Shown piece by piece: positions 32,844 to 43,719 of a stretch of 64,000 bases of DNA. Position 1 is the stretch's first letter. The number at the start of each line of letters is the position of its first letter. The position numbers were made by a program, and so were the translations under genes. A model generated the notes under the pieces. The model had not been told where the DNA came from. It ran no database searches and worked only from the letters and a program-made list of their open reading frames with translations. The stretch comes from Desulfovibrio sp. Marseille-P6017 (GTDB taxonomy: Bacteria; Bacillota_A; Clostridia; Peptostreptococcales; Peptostreptococcaceae), in assembly GCA_900604495.1 (NCBI GenBank), contig UWOR01000009.1:1-64000 (forward strand), given 5' to 3'.

Positions 32844-34472
32844 TTATAAGACCCTTTTTGCATGTAAGTAAACATTATTCCAATATGTATTATTTATTTT
32901 AGTTATTTGAACATTTTCTCCTGGTTTAGGAGCATGTATCATTTCGTTATTTCCTATATAAATTCCAACATGGCTAACATTACCTGTACCATTAGTACTT
33001 GAAAATATTAAATCTCCAGGTTGTAAATTTGATTTGCTAATAGTAGTTCCAACTTTAGATTGATCACTAGATGTTCTTGGTAAAGATATATTTGCTGCAT
33101 TTTTGTAAACATAGCTAGTTAATCCAGAACAATCAAATGAGTTAGGTCCAGTAGCTCCCCAAACATAAGGTTTACCTATTTGTTGTTTAGCTAAATTAAT
33201 AACTGCATCAATTTTATTTGATGTAGAAGTATCTTCTGATGGAGTGTTAGTTGAATTATTTGAAGATGACGAATTAAGATCAATGTATTGAGAGCTAACC
33301 CAACCATTAGAACCATTAGAAAGCTTAACTTTATACCACCCATTAGAACTACTTATAATTTCAACTGTACTACCTTTAGATAAACTACCAATAATAGAAT
33401 AGTTAGTACCAGCACCACTTCTAACATTTAAAGAAGAAGTATTAACAGTACCTATTTTACCCGCAACAGAAGTATCTTCTGATGGAGTGTTAGTTGAATT
33501 ATTTGAAGATGACGAATTAAGATCAATGTATTGAGAGCTAACCCAACCATTAGAACCATTAGAAAGCTTAACTTTATACCACCCATTAGAACTACTTATA
33601 ATTTCAACTGTACTACCTTTAGATAAACTACCAATAATAGAATAGTTAGTACCAGCACCACTTCTAACATTTAAAGAAGAAGTATTAACAGTACCTATTT
33701 TACCCGCAACAGAAGTATCTTCTGATGGAGTGTTAGTTGAATTATTTGAAGATGACGAATTAAGATCAATGTATTGAGAGCTAACCCAACCATTAGAACC
33801 ATTAGAAAGCTTAACTTTATACCACCCATTAGAACTACTTATAATTTCAACTGTACTACCTTTAGATAAACTACCAATAATAGAATAGTTAGTACCAGCA
33901 TCACTTCTAACATTTAAAGAAGAAGTATTAACAGTACCTATTTTACCCGCAACAGAAGTATCTTCTGATGGAGTGTTAGTTGAATTATTTGAAGATGACG
34001 AATTAAGATCAATGTATTGAGAGCTAACCCAACCATTAGAACCATTAGAAAGCTTAACTTTATACCACCCATTAGAACTACTTATAATTTCAACTGTACT
34101 ACCTTTAGATAAACTACCAATAATAGAATAGTTAGTACCAGCACCACTTCTAACATTTAAAGAAGAAGTATTAACAGTACCTATTTTACCCGCAACAGAA
34201 TTATTATTTTTATCAACGTATTGAGAACTAACCCAACCAGTAGAACCATTAGAAAGCTTAACTTTATACCACCCATTAGAACTACTTATAATTTCAACAC
34301 TATTTCCCTTATATAATTTTCCTATTATAGAGTAGTTAGTACCAGCGCCACTTCTAACATTTAAAACAGATGTATTTATAATGCCCATGTCAGAAGCATT
34401 AGCCTCAGTTGAATTTATAGCTAAAACTGCAGACGTAACTGCCATAGACATTATTAAATTCTTTTTTATCAT
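32844..34472 (-). CDS. Secreted SH3b-repeat NlpC/P60 cell-wall endopeptidase
   Basis: 542 aa. N-terminal signal peptide (MIKKNLIMSMAVTSAVLAINSTEANAS), five bacterial SH3 domains with the TSSLNVRSGAGTNYSIIG pattern, Ser/Asn/Thr-rich linkers, and a C-terminal NlpC/P60 catalytic domain with the Cys in FDCSGLTSY and His in VSHVGIYIG. It would cut stem peptides in peptidoglycan outside the cell. Four SH3-linker units are an almost exact 81-residue tandem repeat (see the repeat entry). RBS GGGAGGAT on the minus strand. The copy number of SH3 units is probably variable between strains. Confidence 0.93.
   Translation of the reverse strand: MIKKNLIMSMAVTSAVLAINSTEANASDMGIINTSVLNVRSGAGTNYSIIGKLYKGNSVEIISSSNGWYKVKLSNGSTGWVSSQYVDKNNNSVAGKIGTVNTSSLNVRSGAGTNYSIIGSLSKGSTVEIISSSNGWYKVKLSNGSNGWVSSQYIDLNSSSSNNSTNTPSEDTSVAGKIGTVNTSSLNVRSDAGTNYSIIGSLSKGSTVEIISSSNGWYKVKLSNGSNGWVSSQYIDLNSSSSNNSTNTPSEDTSVAGKIGTVNTSSLNVRSGAGTNYSIIGSLSKGSTVEIISSSNGWYKVKLSNGSNGWVSSQYIDLNSSSSNNSTNTPSEDTSVAGKIGTVNTSSLNVRSGAGTNYSIIGSLSKGSTVEIISSSNGWYKVKLSNGSNGWVSSQYIDLNSSSSNNSTNTPSEDTSTSNKIDAVINLAKQQIGKPYVWGATGPNSFDCSGLTSYVYKNAANISLPRTSSDQSKVGTTISKSNLQPGDLIFSSTNGTGNVSHVGIYIGNNEMIHAPKPGENVQITKINNTYWNNVYLHAKRVL
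33225..34200 (-). repeat. Four-copy 243-bp near-perfect tandem repeat inside the NlpC/P60 gene
   Basis: The same segment starts at 33241, 33484, 33727 and 33970, an exact 243-bp (81-codon) period. By eye the copies are identical except for T instead of C at 33901, which changes one Gly to Asp in NVRSDAGTNY. Each unit is one SH3 domain plus its Ser/Asn/Thr linker. A fifth, diverged SH3 unit lies closer to the signal peptide (34201-34390). Confidence 0.97.
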
Positions 34473-34617
34473 TTAATATCCTCCCATATAAAATTACCTA
34501 AATAAATGGTTAAAAATGTAATTTACAATATAAATATAACATTAATTAAACATTTATGTAAATATAATGAAAAAACAACATGGAAAAATATTGAAATTAT
34601 CGTGTTGAAATACAAGC

Positions 34618-34646
34618 ACTTAGATACAGTAGATAGCATATATATA
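34618..34646 (+). promoter_or_regulatory. sigma-K-like promoter (partial match)
   Basis: AC 34618-34619, 17 nt, then CATATATAT at 34637. The CATA half of the CATAnnnTA consensus matches and the last two bases do not. It lies about 40 nt before the first tiny membrane-protein gene. Confidence 0.4.
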
Positions 34647-34684
34647 TTAGAGAAATTATATATACATACTTAAGGAGGTAAAAT

Positions 34685-34906
34685 ATGAGCCAAATAAGTG
34701 ACCTTGTAAGAGGTTTTGATTTTATTGATGACAACCCAATGATATTATTTTTAATATTTGGTGTAGTAATATTTTTTGCACTTTCAGGTAATAATTGTGG
34801 TGATTTTTTCGAACAAAACAATGTTTTGATATGGATTGTATTAATAGTGTTTGTTTTATTTTTATTAAATAATAATTCTGATGATGATTGTGATTGCTGT
34901 TATTAA
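34685..34906 (+). CDS. Tiny membrane protein with Cys/Asp tail, paralogue 1
   Basis: 73 aa: a polar start, a hydrophobic segment (PMILFLIFGVVIFFALS), a short polar turn with NNCGDFFEQNN, a second hydrophobic segment (VLIWIVLIVFVLFLL), and the tail NNNSDDDCDCCY. It shares the layout, the V/A-L/W-IWI second-segment start and the Cys/Asp tail with the genes at 35836 and 36201. RBS AAGGAGGT. It is monocistronic between a sigma-K-like promoter and a terminator. I do not recognise a characterised family. A late-sporulation, spore-surface role is inferred from the promoter and Cys content. Confidence 0.75.
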   Translation: MSQISDLVRGFDFIDDNPMILFLIFGVVIFFALSGNNCGDFFEQNNVLIWIVLIVFVLFLLNNNSDDDCDCCY

Positions 34907-34942
34907 AAAGATATTTAATCTTATATTTTTATTGAAATATAA

Positions 34943-34983
34943 AAAAACCTTTTAATTAAATTATTAATTAAAAGGTTTTTTTA
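34943..34983. terminator. Bidirectional terminator
   Basis: Stem AAACCTTTTAATTAA with TTAATTAAAAGGTTT, followed by T7 on + and flanked by A7 on the other side. It serves the tiny gene (+) and acpP (-). Confidence 0.88.
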
Positions 34984-34989
34984 TGTAAA

Positions 34990-35217
34990 TTACTTGTTTT
35001 CTTCTATATAGTGGCATATATCACCTATAGTTTTCATGTTTTCAGCTTCTTCATCAGGTATATCTATACCAAACTCGTCTTCAATGGCCATTATAACTTC
35101 AACGGCATCTAAAGAGTCTGCATCTAAGTCTTCTTTTAGAGAAGTTTCTAATGTTAGTTCATCTACATTATCTATACCTAATTGATCGGCAATTATATCT
35201 CTTATTTTTTCAAACAT
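34990..35217 (-). CDS. acpP: Acyl carrier protein
   Basis: 75 aa, full-length ACP with the phosphopantetheine attachment Ser35 in [10 protein letters not shown] and acidic helices. It carries growing acyl chains in fatty-acid synthesis. Start at 35217 (RBS AGGAGGTC immediately upstream on the minus strand); an upstream in-frame extension to 35346 has no RBS. It stands alone, away from any fab cluster in this window, so it may be a second or specialised ACP. Confidence 0.93.
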
Positions 35218-35359
35218 GATTAGACCTCCTAAACGGTTTCTTAATTTTAATTGTAGTTTAATATAATATGAAAATTTTTTCAATATGCAATTAATAAAAA
35301 GTAATAAAGTTTTAAAATATGAATATAAATTATACAAATATAACATAGGAGGAATTGTT

Positions 35360-35791
35360 ATGAAGTATATAGGACTAGTATTATCATCTATATGTGTTTT
35401 TATTATCGTATTAGCAAATTTATACTATAACTCTATAACATTAGATATGCAAAAGATGAAAAATTACATAGTTGAAAGTAATAGGGTATTATCAGATGTA
35501 ATTGAAAAAGAGGATGTAGTACAAGATAATAAAGATGAATACATATCAAGATTAATTAGCTTAAAGAAAGGAATAGAGAACTCTAAGACATCGTTTTTAA
35601 TTAGCGACTATAAAAGCTATAGAATAAAATCAATAGACAGTTTAATATATAGTATCTCAAACTCTAAAGAAAAGGAAAAATATTTAAGTGATGTAGACAA
35701 ATACAATAAACTTAGTGAGGAAGAGTTAAATAAACTAATAAATAAAACTTTTATAGAAGTAACTTATTTGTCAGCTAAAACATATATTTAG
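35360..35791 (+). CDS. Hypothetical membrane-anchored protein
   Basis: 143 aa: an N-terminal transmembrane segment ([23 protein letters not shown]), then an entirely hydrophilic, mostly helical domain rich in Lys, Ser and Glu. No known motif. ATG 35360 is supported by AGGAGG at 35347; an in-frame upstream ATG at 35285 is not. A sigma-K-like promoter for the next gene lies in its last 30 bases. Confidence 0.7.
35762..35790 (+). promoter_or_regulatory. sigma-K-like promoter inside the 3' end of the preceding gene
   Basis: AC 35762-35763, 17 nt, CATATATTT at 35781-35789 (one mismatch to CATAnnnTA). It drives the tiny gene at 35836. Confidence 0.5.
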
Positions 35792-35835
35792 TTAAAGCAA
35801 AATTTAACCTTTTACTTATTAAGGAGGGAAAGGTC

Positions 35836-36039
35836 ATGGCGAAACTAGAAGATACTTTATCTCGCTTTTTGGGAGGCAATGATGGCCTTTTTAGTGGAGG
35901 GGTATTATTAATAATTGTTATAGTATTTTTATTGATTGGAACAGATTTATTAGATGACTTTTTTGATGATGATAGTGTATGGATTTGGATAATTTTAATA
36001 ATTCTATTGTTATTTAATTTTGATGATAATTGTTGCTAA
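35836..36039 (+). CDS. Tiny membrane protein with Cys tail, paralogue 2
   Basis: 67 aa: MAKLEDTLSRFLGGNDGLFSGG head, hydrophobic VLLIIVIVFLLIG, acidic turn DLLDDFFDDDS, hydrophobic VWIWIILIILLLF, tail NFDDNCC. The head (LxRxxGG), turn and CC end match the next gene strongly, indicating tandem duplication. RBS AAGGAGGG. Terminator at 36055-36082. No known family recognised. Confidence 0.75.
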   Translation: MAKLEDTLSRFLGGNDGLFSGGVLLIIVIVFLLIGTDLLDDFFDDDSVWIWIILIILLLFNFDDNCC

Positions 36040-36054
36040 TTTAATAATTTATTT

Positions 36055-36082
36055 AAAGAAATCGATTAGATTTCTTTTTTTA
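36055..36082 (+). terminator. Rho-independent terminator
   Basis: Stem AAAGAAATC (36055-36063) with GATTTCTTT (36069-36077), then a T tract. Confidence 0.78.
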
Positions 36083-36121
36083 TTGCCTTTAAATAAATAT
36101 AAAAATATTAGACAAAATGTA

Positions 36122-36149
36122 ACAATTTAGTATTATAAATCATATTATT
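36122..36149 (+). promoter_or_regulatory. sigma-K-like promoter
   Basis: AC 36122-36123, 17 nt, CATATTATT 36141-36149 (eight of nine positions fit CATAnnnTA). About 50 nt before the tiny gene at 36201. Confidence 0.55.
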
Positions 36150-36200
36150 CATTAAATAGGTAAATAAAAACCTATAAAAATTAACACAGGGGGTATAAAG

Positions 36201-36422
36201 ATGTCTAGTCAAGATAAATTAACTCGTTTATTTGGAGGTTGCTTTGGAGACGGATTATTTGGAGGTGGAGGAATAATATTAATAATATTATTAGTGATAC
36301 TTTTATTAGGAGATGACTTATTAGATTTTATATTCTGTGAAGATAATGCTTTAATATGGATAATATTAATAATATTAGTCATAAGCAATCTTGATTTTGA
36401 TGGCGGATGTGGATGCTGCTAA
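36201..36422 (+). CDS. Tiny membrane protein with GCGCC tail, paralogue 3
   Basis: 73 aa: head KLTRLFGGCFGDGLFGGGG, first hydrophobic segment IILIILLVILLLG, acidic turn DDLLDFIFCEDN, second hydrophobic segment ALIWIILIILVI, tail DFDGGCGCC. Closest in layout to paralogue 2. The Gly-rich head and CGCC tail suggest disulfide cross-linking. RBS AGGGGGT. Its own promoter and terminator make it a single-gene unit. Confidence 0.75.
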   Translation: MSSQDKLTRLFGGCFGDGLFGGGGIILIILLVILLLGDDLLDFIFCEDNALIWIILIILVISNLDFDGGCGCC

Positions 36423-36424
36423 TT

Positions 36425-36459
36425 AAAAAAAGGAGGGGTCAAGTGATGACCTCTTTTTA
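36425..36459 (+). terminator. Rho-independent terminator
   Basis: AGGAGGGGTCA pairs imperfectly with TGACCTCTTT around loop AGTGA, followed by T's. It is flanked by A7 upstream. Confidence 0.7.
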
Positions 36460-36494
36460 TTGTATATAAATAAACTATATATTAAAAAATGATA

Positions 36495-36521
36495 ACACTT
36501 TTTTGATTATTGCATAGTATA
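36495..36521 (+). promoter_or_regulatory. sigma-K-like promoter (full -10 match)
   Basis: AC 36495-36496, 16 nt, CATAGTATA 36513-36521, a complete CATAnnnTA match. Confidence 0.62.
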
Positions 36522-36592
36522 TAAAAGAAGTGCTATTACTTTGACAACTTAGTACTTACATAATTATAACCGATAAGTAAGGGGGAGGTTGT

Positions 36593-36826
36593 ATGAGTAG
36601 TAAATTAAGTAGATTATTTGAAACTATGGGATGCGGTGGAGGAGGATGGTGGATAATTATATTATTCTTCTTATTCTTAGCGTTCCAAGAATGTTGGGCT
36701 GAAATATGTATAACAGACTGGATTCCATTCCTAATCCTATTACTAATTGTTTGTTCATGTAATGGGATAGGTTGTGGCGATGATTTTGGATGTTTAGATA
36801 ATAGTAATTATGATTGTAACTGCTAA
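36593..36826 (+). CDS. Tiny Cys/Trp-rich membrane protein, paralogue 4
   Basis: 77 aa: head SSKLSRLFETMGCGGGG, hydrophobic WWIIILFFLFLAF, turn QECWAEICITD, hydrophobic WIPFLILLLIVCSC, and a Cys/Asp/Gly tail ending DCNC (eight Cys in total by eye after the head). The WWIIxLFFLFLAF and WIPFLIxLLIxCSC blocks recur in the next two genes, so 4-6 form a second subgroup. RBS GGGGGAGG. Strong terminator downstream. Confidence 0.76.
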   Translation: MSSKLSRLFETMGCGGGGWWIIILFFLFLAFQECWAEICITDWIPFLILLLIVCSCNGIGCGDDFGCLDNSNYDCNC

Positions 36827-36832
36827 ATATAT

Positions 36833-36872
36833 AAAAATTATGGAGCTATGAAAATAGCTCCATAATTTTTAT
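36833..36872 (+). terminator. Rho-independent terminator
   Basis: Long perfect stem AAAAATTATGGAGCTAT with ATAGCTCCATAATTTTT around loop GAAA. Confidence 0.9.
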
Positions 36873-36951
36873 ATACAATTTATTTTGAATAAGAAAATTT
36901 ATATTAAATTACTAAAAAAGTATTTAATAAAAAATACCATTAAATATTATC

Positions 36952-36977
36952 ACAAATAATACAACCTGCATATTATA
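36952..36977 (+). promoter_or_regulatory. sigma-K-like promoter (full -10 match, 15-nt spacing)
   Basis: AC 36952-36953, 15 nt, CATATTATA 36969-36977. The -10 is perfect; the spacing is one short of the usual range. Confidence 0.5.
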
Positions 36978-37022
36978 TGTTAAGAGCGAAAGCTCAATAT
37001 ATCAACAGGAGGTAACATAAAG

Positions 37023-37202
37023 ATGTTAGAAAGACTTTTTGGAGACGGTGGATTTTTTGGAGCAGGAGCATGGTGGATAATAGTATTATTCTTCTTATTC
37101 TTAGCATTTGGTGATAGCTGGGTAGATATAGATATAATGGCTTGGATACCATTCTTAATAGTTCTATTAATACTTTGCAGCTGTGGTGGAATGTTTGACT
37201 AG
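37023..37202 (+). CDS. Tiny Trp/Cys membrane protein, paralogue 5
   Basis: 59 aa, easily missed because of its size: MLERLFGDGGFFGAGA head, WWIIVLFFLFLAFG, turn DSWVDIDIMA, WIPFLIVLLILCSCGG, end MFD. Compared with paralogue 6 it lacks the GGCGC tail and stops right after CSCGGMFD. RBS AGGAGGT (37007-37013) with 9-nt spacing. About two thirds of positions match paralogue 6 by eye, including the long WWII block, so duplication is recent. Confidence 0.75.
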   Translation: MLERLFGDGGFFGAGAWWIIVLFFLFLAFGDSWVDIDIMAWIPFLIVLLILCSCGGMFD

Positions 37203-37206
37203 AGTA

Positions 37207-37233
37207 ACATTTTAGATAGAATTTCATACAATA
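37207..37233 (+). promoter_or_regulatory. sigma-K-like promoter (full match)
   Basis: AC 37207-37208, 16 nt, CATACAATA 37225-37233, just after the previous stop codon. Confidence 0.62.
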
Positions 37234-37325
37234 AAGTATTAGGTGGTTAGATAAAAGTCATATGACCCTAGCCATTAATTAAGCTTATAGTTTAATTAAA
37301 ATTTTTTAAATGGGAGGACTTTGTT

Positions 37326-37520
37326 ATGTTCAGTAGATTATTTGGAGATGGTGGATGTTTTTCAGGAGCATGGTGGATTATAGTTCTATTCTTCTTATTC
37401 TTAGCATTTGGTGATTGTTGGGAAGATATAGATATAATTGCTTGGATTCCATTCTTAATCTTATTATTAATAACTTGCTCTTGCGGTGGATTCTTCGATG
37501 ATGGAGGATGTGGCTGCTAA
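37326..37520 (+). CDS. Tiny Trp/Cys membrane protein, paralogue 6
   Basis: 64 aa: MFSRLFGDGGCFSGA, WWIIVLFFLFLAFGDCWEDIDIIA, WIPFLILLLITCSCGGFF, tail DDGGCGC. Two hydrophobic segments separated by an acidic turn predict a membrane hairpin with both ends, including the Cys tail, on the same side. RBS GGGAGGA. Terminator at 37543-37575. No characterised family recognised. Confidence 0.76.
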   Translation: MFSRLFGDGGCFSGAWWIIVLFFLFLAFGDCWEDIDIIAWIPFLILLLITCSCGGFFDDGGCGC

Positions 37521-37542
37521 AATAGAAATTAATTAATCTAGG

Positions 37543-37575
37543 AGTGTTGGTATAATATACCAGCACTTTTGTTTT
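37543..37575 (+). terminator. Rho-independent terminator
   Basis: Stem AGTGTTGGTATA with TATACCAGCACTT, then TTGTTTTT. Confidence 0.78.
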
Positions 37576-37757
37576 TATAAGATATTATTTATAATACTGA
37601 GGGAATATTACATAAATAAATTTATAATATGGGAAAATATGAATGAAAACATATTTATAAAAAAAAAACTTTGTGGTAGAATTAATAGTTAACTAGTAAA
37701 TATTTAATTTTGAATATTCGCATTTAATTTAAATAAATTTAAGATAGGAGGCTTTAT

Positions 37758-38771
37758 ATGAAAAGTAATATAACAATAAAAGATGTAGCAAAAAAAGCGG
37801 GCGTATCAATATCCACTGTATCAAGAGTTATAAATGATTCAAAGCCGGTAACAGATGAGGTAAAACAAAAAGTTCTAGATGTAATAAAAGAAACTGGATA
37901 TATTCCAAATCCATTAGCTAGAAGTTTAGTAACTAAAAAAAGTCAATTAATAGGAGTAATAATCCCAGAGGTGTCAGATTCCTTTGCAAATGAAATACTA
38001 AATGGAGTAGAAGAAATTGCAAAAATGTATGATTATGAGATACTTTTAGCTAATACATATTCAGATAAAGAGCAGGAGCTAAAGAGTATAAATCTATTAA
38101 GAGCCAAGCAAGTTGAAGGTATTGTAATGATATCATGGAAAGTAGAAGAAGAGCATGTTGATTATATGCAAAGATGTGGAATACCAGCATGCTACATAAG
38201 TAAGACTGCAAGAGATTATGATATATATACTGTAAGTACAAGTAATATAGATGCTACGTATGATATGACAAAATACCTTTTAGATAAAGGTCATGAAAAA
38301 ATAGCATTTATTATGACTAGTCAAGATGATACTATACTAGAAAGAGAAAGACTGACTGGGTACGAAAAAGCACTAAGTGAAAGAAATATTAATTTAAATG
38401 AAAAATTAATAAAACATGGAACTACTACTTATGAAGGTGGTTATAAAAGTATGAAAGAAATGCTAGAAGAGGGAATTATACCTCATGCGGCATTTGTAAC
38501 AGGGGATGAGGCTGCTATAGGAGCTATAAATGCTATTTGTGATGCTGGATATAGAGTTCCAGAAGATATATCTGTAGCTGGATTTAATGATGTAAAGATA
38601 GCTAAGATGTATAGACCTAAATTAACAACAGTACATCAGCCATTATATGATATGGGGGCAGTTGCTATAAGAATGGTTATAAAGATGATAAATAAAGAAG
38701 AATTAAATGAAAAGAAAATAGAATTACCATATAGAATAGAAGAAAGAGAAAGTGTTATCGAAAGAAGATAA
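37758..38771 (+). CDS. LacI-family transcriptional regulator
   Basis: 337 aa: N-terminal LacI helix-turn-helix (TIKDVAKKAGVSISTVSRVINDS, residues 5-27), hinge helix NPLARSLVTKKS, and a periplasmic-binding-type ligand domain. The core resembles CcpA/RegA-type regulators. The ligand is unknown and no sugar operon is adjacent. RBS AGGAGGC. Monocistronic, with a terminator at 38774-38813. Confidence 0.92.
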   Translation: MKSNITIKDVAKKAGVSISTVSRVINDSKPVTDEVKQKVLDVIKETGYIPNPLARSLVTKKSQLIGVIIPEVSDSFANEILNGVEEIAKMYDYEILLANTYSDKEQELKSINLLRAKQVEGIVMISWKVEEEHVDYMQRCGIPACYISKTARDYDIYTVSTSNIDATYDMTKYLLDKGHEKIAFIMTSQDDTILERERLTGYEKALSERNINLNEKLIKHGTTTYEGGYKSMKEMLEEGIIPHAAFVTGDEAAIGAINAICDAGYRVPEDISVAGFNDVKIAKMYRPKLTTVHQPLYDMGAVAIRMVIKMINKEELNEKKIELPYRIEERESVIERR

Positions 38772-40381: not shown

Positions 40382-40563
40382 ATAAATCCTGAAGCATTCG
40401 ATAAGGCTTTCTTAAATTCAACCGACAAAGTTTAAACGGGAGATCGAGTCTAAATCCAGCTAATATGCCCTAACATACATAGGGAAATTAAAAGTATTTA
40501 GCAGGTCACCCACCTGGGAGTATCTCGGGTCTGAATTTATGGGGCCACCGGTGTTTTGGGATT
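40382..40563 (+). ncRNA. Structured noncoding RNA (possible raiA-motif RNA; class not confirmed)
   Basis: A GC-richer island in an AT-rich gap, with TATAAT at 40370-40375 upstream and a terminator downstream. Nested complementarity: AATCC 40385-40389 with GGATT 40559-40563; TAAATTCA 40413-40420 with TGAATTTA 40532-40539; GAGAT near 40439 with ATCTC near 40522; CTAAAT near 40450 with ATTTAG near 40497; local hairpins CCCTA/TAGGG and CAGGT/ACCTG. No open reading frame of note. Size, architecture and placement with sporulation genes recall the raiA motif of Firmicutes; 6S RNA is an alternative. The class name is a guess. Confidence 0.7.
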
Positions 40564-40601
40564 AAAAAAAGTGTTGCTCTATAGCAACACTTTTTTATTT
40601 A
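40564..40601. terminator. Bidirectional terminator
   Basis: AAAAAAAGTGTTGCT with AGCAACACTTTTTT around loop CTAT. Ends the structured RNA and the convergent gene. Confidence 0.9.
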
Positions 40602-41612
40602 AAATCCTAAAATTCCTACATCATCTATACTTGTAAATACTGTATTAACGTTGTAAGGTAAATCATCTTTATAATTTGAAAAAAAGTTAGCTCTCATAAA
40701 ATCATTTTCAACACTATATTCATCAATTTCATGTTCACTCCAGCTTTTTCCTAAATCTTTAGAATAACTTGTATGTAATTTTCCAAAATTGACCCACATT
40801 AAATATAAAGTTGAATCTTTTTTTAAAAAAGAAGGATACATACATGTAGAAGGACCTGTTATATAAGTTGATATATCTGTATCAAATGAAGTATCATTTA
40901 AATAACCGTTTAAATATTTTACAGAGTATCCGTTATCTAAATTCTCACAGAATGTTAAGTGATAAAAATTCATGCTATCTTTCAATACATTTAAGTAAAT
41001 TTTATTTTTTCTAGAGTTAGTTATTTGAACAGGTGAGGACCATGTCAGTGTGCTTTTATTAAATCTAGATAAAAAAACTTCTTCAATTCCATTTACTAAA
41101 TTAAAATAAAATACGCTAGGGGAATCATAGCTCCAAATAACAATAAAATTATCTAAAATAATATGATTTATAAAATCTATCTTATTTTCAGTCCATACAT
41201 CATTATGTTTGAAATGATGAAATAGAGCACAAGTATTGGCAGAATTATGATTATAAACATAGTATAAAATATGTGTATCATTTCTGGTAATATTTATATA
41301 TGGGAAACAAATACCAAACTTTTTAGAATTGTATTTTAAGAGCTCTTTTTGCGTAAAATTAGAAGATCCACTTTGTGAAGTTAAAATTTTTAGAGCTCCA
41401 TCATTATAAATACCATATACATTATCAAATTTATCTAAATTAAAAAAGCAATTTGCAGAATCAATAGAATTATTACGTATCAATTTCTTTGAAAAAAGAA
41501 ACTCGTTATTTTTATCATAGTAATTATAAGATATATCTTTATCAAAGGTAATAAAAAACATATCCTTAGAAGAACGTCTAATTATTGTTGAGCATTTATT
41601 AATAAAACTCAT
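40599..41612 (-). CDS. Hypothetical beta-propeller/sialidase-fold-like protein
   Basis: 337 aa without signal peptide or membrane segments. Rich in Phe/Tyr/Asn and short beta-type repeats; SYSKDLGKSWSEHEID resembles an Asp-box (SxDxGxxW) as in sialidase/BNR propellers, and similar W-containing blades recur (STLTWSSPVQITNS). RBS AGGAGGTATAT on the minus strand. It lies next to a coat-like gene. The protein at 43060-43719 looks like a shorter relative. The function is unknown; a spore-surface role is inferred from context. Confidence 0.68.
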   Translation of the reverse strand: MSFINKCSTIIRRSSKDMFFITFDKDISYNYYDKNNEFLFSKKLIRNNSIDSANCFFNLDKFDNVYGIYNDGALKILTSQSGSSNFTQKELLKYNSKKFGICFPYINITRNDTHILYYVYNHNSANTCALFHHFKHNDVWTENKIDFINHIILDNFIVIWSYDSPSVFYFNLVNGIEEVFLSRFNKSTLTWSSPVQITNSRKNKIYLNVLKDSMNFYHLTFCENLDNGYSVKYLNGYLNDTSFDTDISTYITGPSTCMYPSFLKKDSTLYLMWVNFGKLHTSYSKDLGKSWSEHEIDEYSVENDFMRANFFSNYKDDLPYNVNTVFTSIDDVGILGF

Positions 41613-41800: not shown

Positions 41801-42997
41801 ATGCAAGATCTTAGAAAGAATAAAAGAAAAATGATTAATAAACATATGAATGCAGTCAACAACCCTGAAATAGAAGAAATGAGCGACGATTTAGAGAGGG
41901 TTTATAGACCAAAACACAGCGATAATTGTAATCCATGTCCAAAAGAATGCGAACATGAACATGAACACGAATGTGACTGTGAATGCGAATGTCATCATCA
42001 TCACCATCATCATGAAGATTGTGAACCATGTGAAGTTGAATCTGACAATTGTGTAAATAATCCTTGTTCTGAGGAATGTTGTACTCCAATAGTTCCATCA
42101 ACATTTTCAACTAGTAATAGTATACCAGTTGCTATTGAAACTAACAGAGTATTTGATAGTATAGTTTTCCAAACACTTACAGATGGAATGAGCTTACAAG
42201 GTCCATTGGTGTATGATATTGAAGTTGCTGAAGTTAGAGGTCCAGTTCCAAGAACAGGTCCAGTAAGTGTAACTATTGAAAAAGTATGTATGAACTACTG
42301 CTCAATAGATATAGAATCAGAAGATCCTAGATTAGAAGATTTTAACGTAGTTAAAACATGTTCAGATGATAGAGGGCTTTGTGATACAACTTTTGAATAT
42401 AAGGTATGTGGAGATACAAATACAACTTGCTGTGAAAAGAAAAAAGGTCAATCTGTTGCATATAAACAAAAAGGATTAGTTGCAACTGTAAAAGATTTGG
42501 TATTAGAACTAAGAGGTAAATGTGGATGTACAGAAATAATAGCATTGGCATATCCAGCAGTTAGAACTCCAAGTGGATGCTTACAAAGAGTTTCAGAAGT
42601 TCAATTCCCATATAATACGTTTGCAGCATCATGTTGTTTACCAGCTAGTGGAAGACCAGTTACATTAAGACAAGATTATCAAGTTAGTTTAACAGTTGAT
42701 TGTGTTGGAAAAGCATATTTATGTTTAGTAGAAGTTTCTGATTGTGAATGTTATTATAATTTAGATATACCTAATGGTATAGATGTGGTACTTTGCTTGC
42801 AAGAGGTTGTAAGTATATTAGTAAACGAGAGAATTGTTGTATTAGCATCACCAACTCAAGTTTCTCCGAGAGTTGTAGATAATTACTCTAAATTATGTGA
42901 CTTTACACAATGTGTAGATTCAGTTACATCTACACAATCAGGTGAATCTACAACATCAACAAATGGATGCAACACATGTAAAAAAACTTATAAATAA
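41801..42997 (+). CDS. His/Cys-rich putative spore coat or exosporium protein
   Basis: 398 aa. Residues about 45-90 are a Cys/His/Glu block with seven consecutive His flanked by CECEC and EDCEPCE, followed by more Cys pairs (NPCSEECC). The remainder (about 105-370) is a beta-rich domain with spaced Cys (VCMNYC, CGDTNTTCCEKKKG, CGCTE, CECYY), beginning ETNRVFDSIVFQTLTDG, and a Ser/Thr tail ending CNTCKKTYK. The composition fits disulfide- and metal-cross-linked coat proteins of Clostridia. RBS GGGGAGG. A sigma-K-like promoter supports mother-cell expression. The exact family was not established. Confidence 0.75.
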   Translation: MQDLRKNKRKMINKHMNAVNNPEIEEMSDDLERVYRPKHSDNCNPCPKECEHEHEHECDCECECHHHHHHHEDCEPCEVESDNCVNNPCSEECCTPIVPSTFSTSNSIPVAIETNRVFDSIVFQTLTDGMSLQGPLVYDIEVAEVRGPVPRTGPVSVTIEKVCMNYCSIDIESEDPRLEDFNVVKTCSDDRGLCDTTFEYKVCGDTNTTCCEKKKGQSVAYKQKGLVATVKDLVLELRGKCGCTEIIALAYPAVRTPSGCLQRVSEVQFPYNTFAASCCLPASGRPVTLRQDYQVSLTVDCVGKAYLCLVEVSDCECYYNLDIPNGIDVVLCLQEVVSILVNERIVVLASPTQVSPRVVDNYSKLCDFTQCVDSVTSTQSGESTTSTNGCNTCKKTYK

Positions 42998-43059: not shown

Positions 43060-43719
43060 TTATTTTTTATATTTTATACTATAACAATACTCAAATATAT
43101 CATCACGAATATTTGATTTACTTTGATTATTAGAAGTATAGTTAATATCTCTAAGTAATGTATTAGGGGTTAGCCATAATCTAGATTGACTATTAAATAT
43201 AATAGTATTATTATTAGACTCACCTCTAGTAGAAGTATTTAAAGCCTTATACTCAAAGACAATATTTGATAAATCATCTATGTTTAATTTATAAATATGT
43301 CCTTTATCTTTTACAATATTGTTGATATCATGCTTTGATATCTTAGTATTTCCTGGGCAAAAATTAAAATGTGATACTTTATAAATATTTTCATCAAGAG
43401 AGCTTTCTTCAACAACAAATAAGTTTAAGTAATTATTTATTATATAAAGTCTCATATCTTTAATATTTTTTGTATTATTAAATGCTTTACAGATAGCAGT
43501 TTTCTTCCAATATCCTCTATTATTATTAAAAAAGTGAATTAATCTTCCTGTTGTATCTATAGAACAAATATGAATTCTTTTTTGAGAATCAATATTTGCA
43601 CAATAAGTATAAATGTTATTTGATAATTTTTCAGTATGTTCATTTATATTTTTTATATAAAGTTTATCATTACTAGTATAAATATAAAAAGGTTTTATGT
43701 CAGAATTAGTTTTACTCAT
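43060..43719 (-). CDS. Hypothetical beta-rich protein downstream of the flippase
   Basis: 219 aa, no signal peptide. Repeated beta-type blades (KPFYIYTSNDKLYIKNINEH, IDSQKRIHICSIDTTGRLIHFFNNNRGYWKKTAI) suggest half of a propeller, similar in texture to the protein at 40599. Its ATG overlaps the flippase stop by 4 nt (ATGA) and AGGAGGAT precedes it, so the two are translated together. No characterised family. Confidence 0.65.
   Translation of the reverse strand: MSKTNSDIKPFYIYTSNDKLYIKNINEHTEKLSNNIYTYCANIDSQKRIHICSIDTTGRLIHFFNNNRGYWKKTAICKAFNNTKNIKDMRLYIINNYLNLFVVEESSLDENIYKVSHFNFCPGNTKISKHDINNIVKDKGHIYKLNIDDLSNIVFEYKALNTSTRGESNNNTIIFNSQSRLWLTPNTLLRDINYTSNNQSKSNIRDDIFEYCYSIKYKK

Follow-up and report, generated by a model that had tools for sequence, protein, structure and literature searches.

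Paired families of tiny, cysteine-tailed hydrophobic proteins with sigma-K-type promoters in SpoIVA-bearing members of one bacterial family

The DNA analysed here, positions 1 to 64,000 (forward strand) of contig UWOR01000009.1 from Desulfovibrio sp. Marseille-P6017 (assembly GCA_900604495.1; Peptostreptococcaceae in GTDB) and termed the window, contains an array of six tiny genes whose products fall into two protein families, group 1 (genes 1-3) and group 2 (genes 4-6). The array proteins are conserved, are under selection, occur in SpoIVA-bearing members of one bacterial family, and are encoded behind sigma-K-type promoters. An original prediction, made from the DNA alone, had proposed sporulation genes expressed in the mother cell under sigma-K, and this proposal is borne out by published drops in expression of the C. 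difficile counterparts in sigE and sigK mutants, by mapped promoters, by the recurrence of the promoter motif in relatives, and by the tracking of SpoIVA. Sigma-K regulation of the counterparts is already in print; the build of the array proteins appears to be an unusual membrane hairpin with a Cys tail.

The array and its two protein families

The six genes are arranged as follows (aa, amino acids).

34685-34906, plus strand: gene 1 (group 1), 73 aa, Cys-rich end DCDCCY
35836-36039, plus strand: gene 2 (group 1), 67 aa, matched by gene order to C. difficile CD1063.1
36201-36422, plus strand: gene 3 (group 1), 73 aa, tail GCGCC
36593-36826, plus strand: gene 4 (group 2, "first" type with long Cys tail), 77 aa
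37023-37202, plus strand: gene 5 (group 2, tailless "middle" type), 59 aa, matched by gene order to C. difficile CD1063.2
37326-37520, plus strand: gene 6 (group 2, "last" type with CGC tail), 64 aa, matched by gene order to C. difficile CD1063.3

All six open reading frames (ORFs) begin with ATG behind ribosome sites of the GGAGG or GGGGG type (read by eye), and each of the six proteins contains two hydrophobic segments. Five of the six end in a Cys tail, the exception being gene 5, which terminates in ...CSCGGMFD. The genes, positions, and sizes (59-77 aa) of the original prediction were confirmed by the ORF check, as were its strong ribosome-binding sites, its paired hydrophobic segments, its five Cys tails, and its division into genes 1-3 and 4-6, which correspond to the two families. 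The columns that are invariant across all six proteins are M, R, W-I, and one D, with no others, and a profile comparison of group 1 with group 2 gave a probability of 87%, based on few sequences and 22 hydrophobic columns.

Group 2 is the better conserved of the two, with 17 invariant columns among 36 sequences, nearly all of which lie inside WWIIVLFFLFLAF and WIPFLILLLI. Gene 6 has relatives in 325 protein clusters at E<=0.01, the best named one among the best 120 of the 325 being a Romboutsia protein (91%); the same search with gene 3 returned nine clusters, including the window's own entry. Given the Romboutsia match, the window probably derives from that genus or one close to it. Selection was measured on 70 group-2 cores of 34 codons each, taken from window genes 4-6 and from copies in 35 related loci (L001-L035), with group-2 genes too near a contig start omitted. 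The median of synonymous differences (pS) is 0.53 and that of nonsynonymous differences (pN) is 0.13, and pN >= pS in 0 of 2415 pairs. A reading of the array as chance ORFs was dropped because of these pairs and the 325 cluster matches of gene 6. No family in Pfam, NCBIfam, or PHROGs matches these proteins above cut-off, and a search of solved structures gave a single match (E 0.24) that is regarded as chance. The original remark that the family could not be named thus holds for these libraries but not for C. difficile, where the genes have tags and published expression.

The 35 loci were retrieved by a profile scan of genome contigs with the gene 6 alignment, and come from genera that we take to be Peptostreptococcaceae or from loosely labelled Clostridium isolates and metagenome-assembled genomes. 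In 16 of the 35, a group-2 copy stands alone, unlinked to an array. Across the loci, group-2 proteins fall into recurring types. Proteins of the first type carry long Cys tails that average 16 residues (range 4-25), and 16/16 have Cys in one of the last two positions; the middle type is nearly tailless (2-3 residues; Cys in the last two in 5/19); the last type (18/18) and the unlinked copies (16/16) have short Cys tails, and the one protein of the 70 that could not be classed also has Cys in its last two residues (1/1). Group 1 has Cys within the last three residues in 36 of 37 proteins. The type labels cluster on the group-2 tree, requiring eight changes compared to a mean of 39.7 for shuffled labels, on a tree built from few columns with 13 of its 66 inner branches well supported. 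This clustering and the retention of the middle type indicate that the tailless gene 5 represents a conserved type rather than an exception. The conservation of these types (first with a long tail, middle with none, last with a short one, and the unlinked copy) is new here, as is the pairing of the two families in the same genomes.

That pairing was observed in 71 genomes from the family to which G001, the Romboutsia lituseburensis genome with locus L018, belongs. Group 2 is present in 53 of the 71 and group 1 in the same 53. SpoIVA is found in 54, including all 53 array genomes, and neither group was found in the 17 genomes without SpoIVA, many of which probably form one related group and so do not represent 17 independent losses. 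In wider samples searched with group 2 alone, matches occur in 53 of 393 genomes at the order level (the same 53) and in 3 of 391 at the class level (all three among the 53); group 2 was not found elsewhere in these samples, from which distant homologues could escape. With gene 6 as the query, no relatives were found in phage records, plasmid records, or IMG/VR contigs. The homologues are therefore not confined to non-spore-formers or phages, as all 53 array genomes bear SpoIVA.

Transcription of the array in the window and its relatives

The C. difficile locus among the 35, L030, encodes proteins with 63%, 75%, and 80% identity to genes 2, 5, and 6. Its gene order is an acyl carrier protein (ACP), a 141-aa protein, one group-1 gene, two group-2 genes, and a LacI regulator. 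Beyond LacI come a protein that can be read as 146 aa, an acidic one, and the exosporium morphogenetic protein CdeC (405 aa). The window shares this order, with an ACP, a 143-aa protein, the array, a LacI regulator, a 134-aa basic protein, an acidic protein, and CdeC. The array counterparts in L030 are most likely CD1063.1-CD1063.3, with CD1063 before them and CD1064 to CD1067 for the genes from LacI to CdeC; L030 is unannotated, and the tags were assigned by order and length. The assignment is supported by the lengths published for C. difficile CdeC, 405 aa (PMC6101409), and CD1065, 146 aa (PMC6232153). Similar to CD1063.1-.3, the window array lies between a CD1063-like membrane protein and LacI and belongs to the same sequence families. 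The main differences are in number and spacing: a single group-1 gene and a linked pair of group-2 genes, 34 bases from each other, in L030, and three of each with longer gaps in the window.

In C. difficile, the ratio of sigE mutant to wild type is 0.17 for CD1063.1 and 0.01 for both CD1063.2 and CD1063.3, and the corresponding sigK ratios are 0.21, 0.04, and 0.04 (PMC3789822). The same study maps sigma-K promoters for all three genes, marks CD1063.1 as spore-associated, and assigns CD1063 itself to sigma-E (PMC3789822). A search for the tags in the main texts covered returned no study of the CD1063.1-.3 proteins themselves, and the part of PMC12570504 covered contains nothing on these genes.

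Promoters were sought with the pattern AC-N14-17-CATAnnnT[A/T] within 150 bases upstream of each gene. The pattern follows the sigma-K consensus, its AC -35 element agreeing with PMC3789822, and it was written after the window's upstream regions had been viewed, so that the relatives provide the fairer test. Promoter and terminator features of the window are listed below.

35762-35789, plus strand: sigma-K-like promoter of gene 2, overlapping the end of the upstream ORF
36122-36149, plus strand: sigma-K-like promoter of gene 3, by motif
36495-36521, plus strand: sigma-K-like promoter of gene 4, strict match, CATAGTATA
36952-36977, plus strand: sigma-K-like promoter of gene 5, strict match, CATATTATA
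36984-36995, plus strand: GAGC-GAAA-GCTC hairpin directly 3' of the gene 5 promoter, by pattern and folding
37207-37233, plus strand: sigma-K-like promoter of gene 6, strict match, CATACAATA
34937-34986, plus strand: strong hairpin after gene 1, before the convergent ACP gene (fold z -7.1 for 34907-34990)
36055-36077, plus strand: terminator-like hairpin of gene 2 (fold z -2.3), missed by a GC-based scan
36430-36458, plus strand: terminator-like hairpin of gene 3, by consensus scan and folding
36828-36875, plus strand: terminator-like hairpin of gene 4, by consensus scan and folding
37539-37571, plus strand: terminator-like hairpin of gene 6, by consensus scan and folding

The motif lies upstream of five of the six window genes (1000 shuffles: mean 0.29, maximum 3), and its strict form upstream of three (shuffles: mean 0.15, maximum 2); sigma-70-type sites show no excess (37 vs 30.9 expected). 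Counted by best hit, the motif precedes 9/15 relatives of gene 2, 13/14 of gene 3, 15/18 of gene 4, 13/22 of gene 5, and 8/27 of gene 6 (the last two including unlinked copies), as well as 5/5 CdeC genes. Control genes rarely carry it: ACP 0/16, RluD 0/11, nucleoid-associated protein 0/13, MATE 0/7, MocR 0/5, LacI 1/15, and membrane protein 3/12. Five loci from genomes that have an array and no CdeC match carry the motif at 16 of 23 marked array genes. Gene starts in the promoter scripts were set mechanically, and some distances are off.

The motif also follows the spacing of the genes. Linked genes that come first or lie more than 60 bases from the preceding array or membrane-protein gene have it in 48 of 64 cases, and those with a shorter gap in 7 of 21, all seven being gene 2 counterparts. 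The motif is absent from all 11 group-2 genes with a short gap, as expected if they use an upstream promoter. Among the unlinked copies, the loose motif was found in 3 of 16. When 15 of these were re-read (L012 left out), an exact CATAnnnTA was visualized 48-60 bases upstream in 14, and the copy in L034 has it with one mismatch; a CAAA-type -35 element, like that of the C. difficile CD1063.2 counterpart, was seen by eye in 13 of the 15.

Terminator-like hairpins follow five of the six genes, detected by the consensus scan for genes 3, 4, and 6 and by folding only for genes 1 and 2; none was found downstream of gene 5 (fold z -0.6). The original prediction had given most genes their own terminator and sigma-K-like promoter. 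Each element is present for five of six, the exceptions being gene 1, which has no motif, and gene 5, which has no terminator. The C. difficile counterparts of genes 5 and 6 form a published operon (PMC3789822). The absence of a terminator makes the designation "separate transcription unit" weakest for genes 5 and 6.

A second element, GAGC-loop-GCTC, sits directly behind the -10 element in gene 5 types and in many unlinked copies. In the window and the 35 loci, all 26 such elements (four-pair stem) precede a group-2 gene. The stems are GAGC:GCTC in 18, GAGT:ACTC in six, and the mispaired GAGC:ACTC in two; between the first two forms, one pair is altered on both strands of the stem. A scan of all 71 genomes gave 66 occurrences, spread over 43 of them, and two of the reversed pattern. 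A comparison by eye places 62 of the 66 just upstream of a listed group-2 match; the occurrence in G057 also precedes a group-2 gene, and one in G070 is followed, where the contig ends, by the start of such a gene, giving 64 of 66, with exceptions in G034 and G041. In the same search the pattern was not found in the eight array genomes without a CdeC match, nor in G026, G027, and G031, which have both arrays and CdeC. The window hairpin folds at -6.1 kcal/mol (z -4.2), and two relatives have z values of -2.4 and -1.8. This short hairpin behind a promoter, almost exclusive to these genes, is new here, and may lend stability to a long-lived mRNA or serve as an operator.

Gene order and neighbouring genes

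The conserved neighbours in the window are as follows.

35360-35791, plus strand: 143-aa protein with an N-terminal hydrophobic segment, matched by gene order to C. difficile CD1063
37758-38771, plus strand: LacI-family regulator, by family match
41801-42997, plus strand: CdeC, exosporium morphogenetic protein (NF052417, E 1.1e-151)

The recurrent order begins with a pseudouridine synthase, a nucleoid-associated protein, gene 1, and an ACP gene on the opposite strand, and ends with the membrane protein, gene 2, gene 3, two to four group-2 genes, and the LacI regulator. A gene 1 counterpart is present in only 5 of the 35 loci, the ACP gene in all 15 that extend upstream of gene 2, and CdeC within the retrieved stretch in five. 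The flank of L010 (Terrisporobacter) contains no LacI match. The unlinked copy precedes a protein of ~500 aa in L016, L017, and L025, with a 116-aa ORF intervening in L017.

CdeC was found in 45 of the 71 genomes, all within the 53 that carry arrays. Judged by eye from coordinates, 32 of the 45 have it on the array's contig within about 15 kb, and eleven have it on a different contig. Arrays lacking a CdeC match retain the arrangement: in L036, L038, L039, L040, and L041, the membrane protein, one group-1 gene, several group-2 genes, and LacI stand in order.

Several further features were observed at these loci. In the window, the ACP-like gene occupies 34990-35217 on the minus strand, inside the conserved block. 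Between the nucleoid-associated gene and gene 1 lies a gene for a 542-aa protein (32844-34472, minus strand), which has repeats nearly identical in DNA, reads by eye as SH3-like with an NlpC/P60-like end, and has no match at that position in related loci. A 6S RNA (RF00013, 93.9 bits) is located at 40383-40566, between the LacI regulator and CdeC, and CdeC is flanked by minus-strand ORFs at 40599-41612 (337 aa) and 43060-43719 (219 aa), which are matched in L001, L006, and L008 and not in C. difficile L030. In L010, L014, L019, and L023 (Intestinibacter/Terrisporobacter types), about 4.2-4.6 kb separate the gene 2 and gene 3 counterparts.

Topology and function of the array proteins

The placement of charge suggests how the array proteins would sit in a membrane. 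In the six window proteins, every Lys and Arg is at residue 10 or before. Across 70 group-2 proteins, the head holds 98 of 105 such residues, the first segment none, the turn three, the second segment none, and the tail four. In the 31 of 37 group-1 proteins that could be split into these regions, 62 of 63 are in the head, one lies beyond it up to the second segment, and none follows that segment; the head counts are somewhat inflated by a few heads made overlong by mechanical starts. By the positive-inside rule, parts rich in Lys and Arg stay cytoplasmic, so that both the head and the tail would face the cytoplasm of the mother cell and the acidic turn would emerge on the opposite side of the membrane. 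This prediction that both ends are on the mother-cell side is new here. Two hydrophobic segments with a charge asymmetry are the marks of two-helix membrane proteins, among which the array proteins would thus be placed, and a membrane hairpin with both ends inside is considered fairly probable.

In the preferred explanation, the mother cell would use sigma-K late in sporulation to express the array as small membrane proteins with two segments. Each would insert as the hairpin described above, most likely into the outer forespore membrane, with its thiols facing the compartment in which the coat and exosporium assemble. The Cys-rich tails and the CSC at the end of the second segment would form disulfides with one another and with Cys-rich coat or exosporium proteins, such as CdeC where it is present. 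The outer forespore membrane, or what is left of it, would in this way be fastened to the shell. The conservation of long-tailed, tailless, and short-tailed paralogues suggests a mixed assembly, in which tailless members would fill the sheet and tailed members would make the outward links. A sporulation role with sigma-K is very probable. The explanation as a whole, in which sigma-K membrane hairpins tie the outer forespore membrane to the Cys-rich coat and exosporium, is favoured tentatively, and disulfide anchoring of the shell by the array proteins is put forward with slightly more reserve.

A number of observations weigh against this explanation. The localisation, topology, and disulfides are all predicted. 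The first hydrophobic segment of group 2 has only about 13-15 residues, and the AlphaFold models are poor, with helices at residues 16-27 and 37-53 for gene 6 (pLDDT 64) and at 24-45 and 50-66 for gene 3 (pLDDT 56), both of low confidence. The membrane hairpin with thiols on one side that was originally predicted is favoured by the charge placement, and the models show two hydrophobic helices in both groups at low confidence. The tailless middle type is at odds with simple cross-linking. The sigma-K-like motif is missing upstream of gene 1, both in the window and in five relatives (0/5). One genome, G032 (1.8 Mb), has SpoIVA and neither group. CdeC is 84-104 kb from the array in two genomes, and eight genomes (G013, G014, G061-G066) have arrays, each with a single group-1 match and between three and five group-2 matches, and no CdeC match, an observation that is new here. 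These distant and missing copies indicate that CdeC cannot be the general partner. CD1063.2 and CD1063.3 are listed as absent from the detected spore proteins (PMC3789822), although proteins this small and hydrophobic can readily escape detection. The gene cd630_10631, which by name is CD1063.1, is up with overexpressed WalR-D54E (log2 2.18; WalR -0.07) (PMC9210968), hinting at expression outside sporulation. Finally, PMC6232153 lists CD1063A-C among sigma-E genes, after earlier work. This label still means mother-cell expression, and it slightly lowers the confidence in a sporulation role with sigma-K.

The rival closest in weight to the preferred explanation is that the array proteins are a hydrophobic filler of the coat or exosporium, which would not enter a bilayer and would give an insoluble, disulfide-rich, water-repellent spore surface. 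Late mother-cell expression and the spore association of CD1063.1 (PMC3789822) are consistent with it, as are the several similar copies per genome and a mean Cys content of 9.0% in group 2, like the 9% of CdeC (PMC6101409). The two hydrophobic stretches, the acidic turn, and the confinement of nearly all Lys and Arg to the head nevertheless resemble topology signals, and purifying selection on the core exceeds a filler's needs, which leaves this reading unlikely, if worth weighing. The same Cys tails, with CxC, CGC, and CC in the first, last, and unlinked types, could instead belong to membrane peptides that bind Zn, Fe, or Cu or act as a redox-buffering thiol sink protecting the spore of an anaerobe. 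This is improbable: tail spacing varies, almost no His accompanies the Cys (0.0% of group-2 residues), and the middle type keeps little beyond CSC.

Small two-segment hydrophobic proteins, encoded in several copies and expressed late in the mother cell (PMC3789822), could also be holin-like peptides that permeabilise membranes for mother-cell lysis or spore release. The best PHROGs match has E 0.21 and is to a family of unknown function, with no holin or other viral family, the match of gene 5 to a Pfam holin (E 0.37) is far under cut-off, the proteins are net acidic with conserved Cys tails, and CD1063.1 is found with the spore (PMC3789822), so that a holin-like role is a little less probable still. 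The tandem arrangement of tiny hydrophobic ORFs resembles that of a toxic small-peptide array, of the type I toxin or bacteriocin-like kind. The conserved place of the genes, their restriction to SpoIVA-bearing genomes among the 71, the lack of phage, plasmid, or IMG/VR relatives of gene 6, and the sigma-K-like promoters make such an array most improbable.

Comparison with known spore proteins places the array apart. Similar to the array, CdeC and CdeM are controlled by sigma-K (CD1067 and CD1581; PMC3789822) and are Cys-rich (PMC6101409). CdeC differs in having 398-405 aa and its own family, NF052417, whose profile matches window positions 41801-42997 and none of the six array proteins at E<=1. 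The Bacillus YjcZ type comprises tiny one-segment hydrophobic proteins of sporulation. The array proteins share size, hydrophobicity, and the link to sporulation with this type and differ in their two hydrophobic segments and Cys tails; in Pfam, no YjcZ-type match was found for the six window proteins at E<=1 or for 27 proteins of set A5 at E<=0.1. Proposed Cys cross-linking of spore surface layers is shared with ExsY, CotY, and CotZ, which the part of PMC6101409 covered names and does not describe as membrane hairpins; searches of the window proteins in Pfam and NCBIfam gave no match to these families.

Taken to its fullest form, the preferred explanation would have tiny thiol-tailed hairpins build a mixed scaffold, embedded in a membrane of the spores of this family and more widely distributed than CdeC, by which the outer forespore membrane is welded to the shell. 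One subset of the scaffold genes would use a dedicated hairpin, placed at the mRNA 5' end or close to it (or acting as an operator), that is hardly used elsewhere. So complete a picture is, at this stage, rather unlikely to hold in every part. The array consists of two paired groups of sigma-K type that occur family-wide and in no domain library searched, and it shows how annotation leaves tiny hydrophobic spore proteins unnamed. If the array proteins are shell anchors, their deletion would directly test whether a membrane-derived layer holds the coat and exosporium together. With or without a role in anchoring the shell, they offer compact markers for the capacity to sporulate in this bacterial family.

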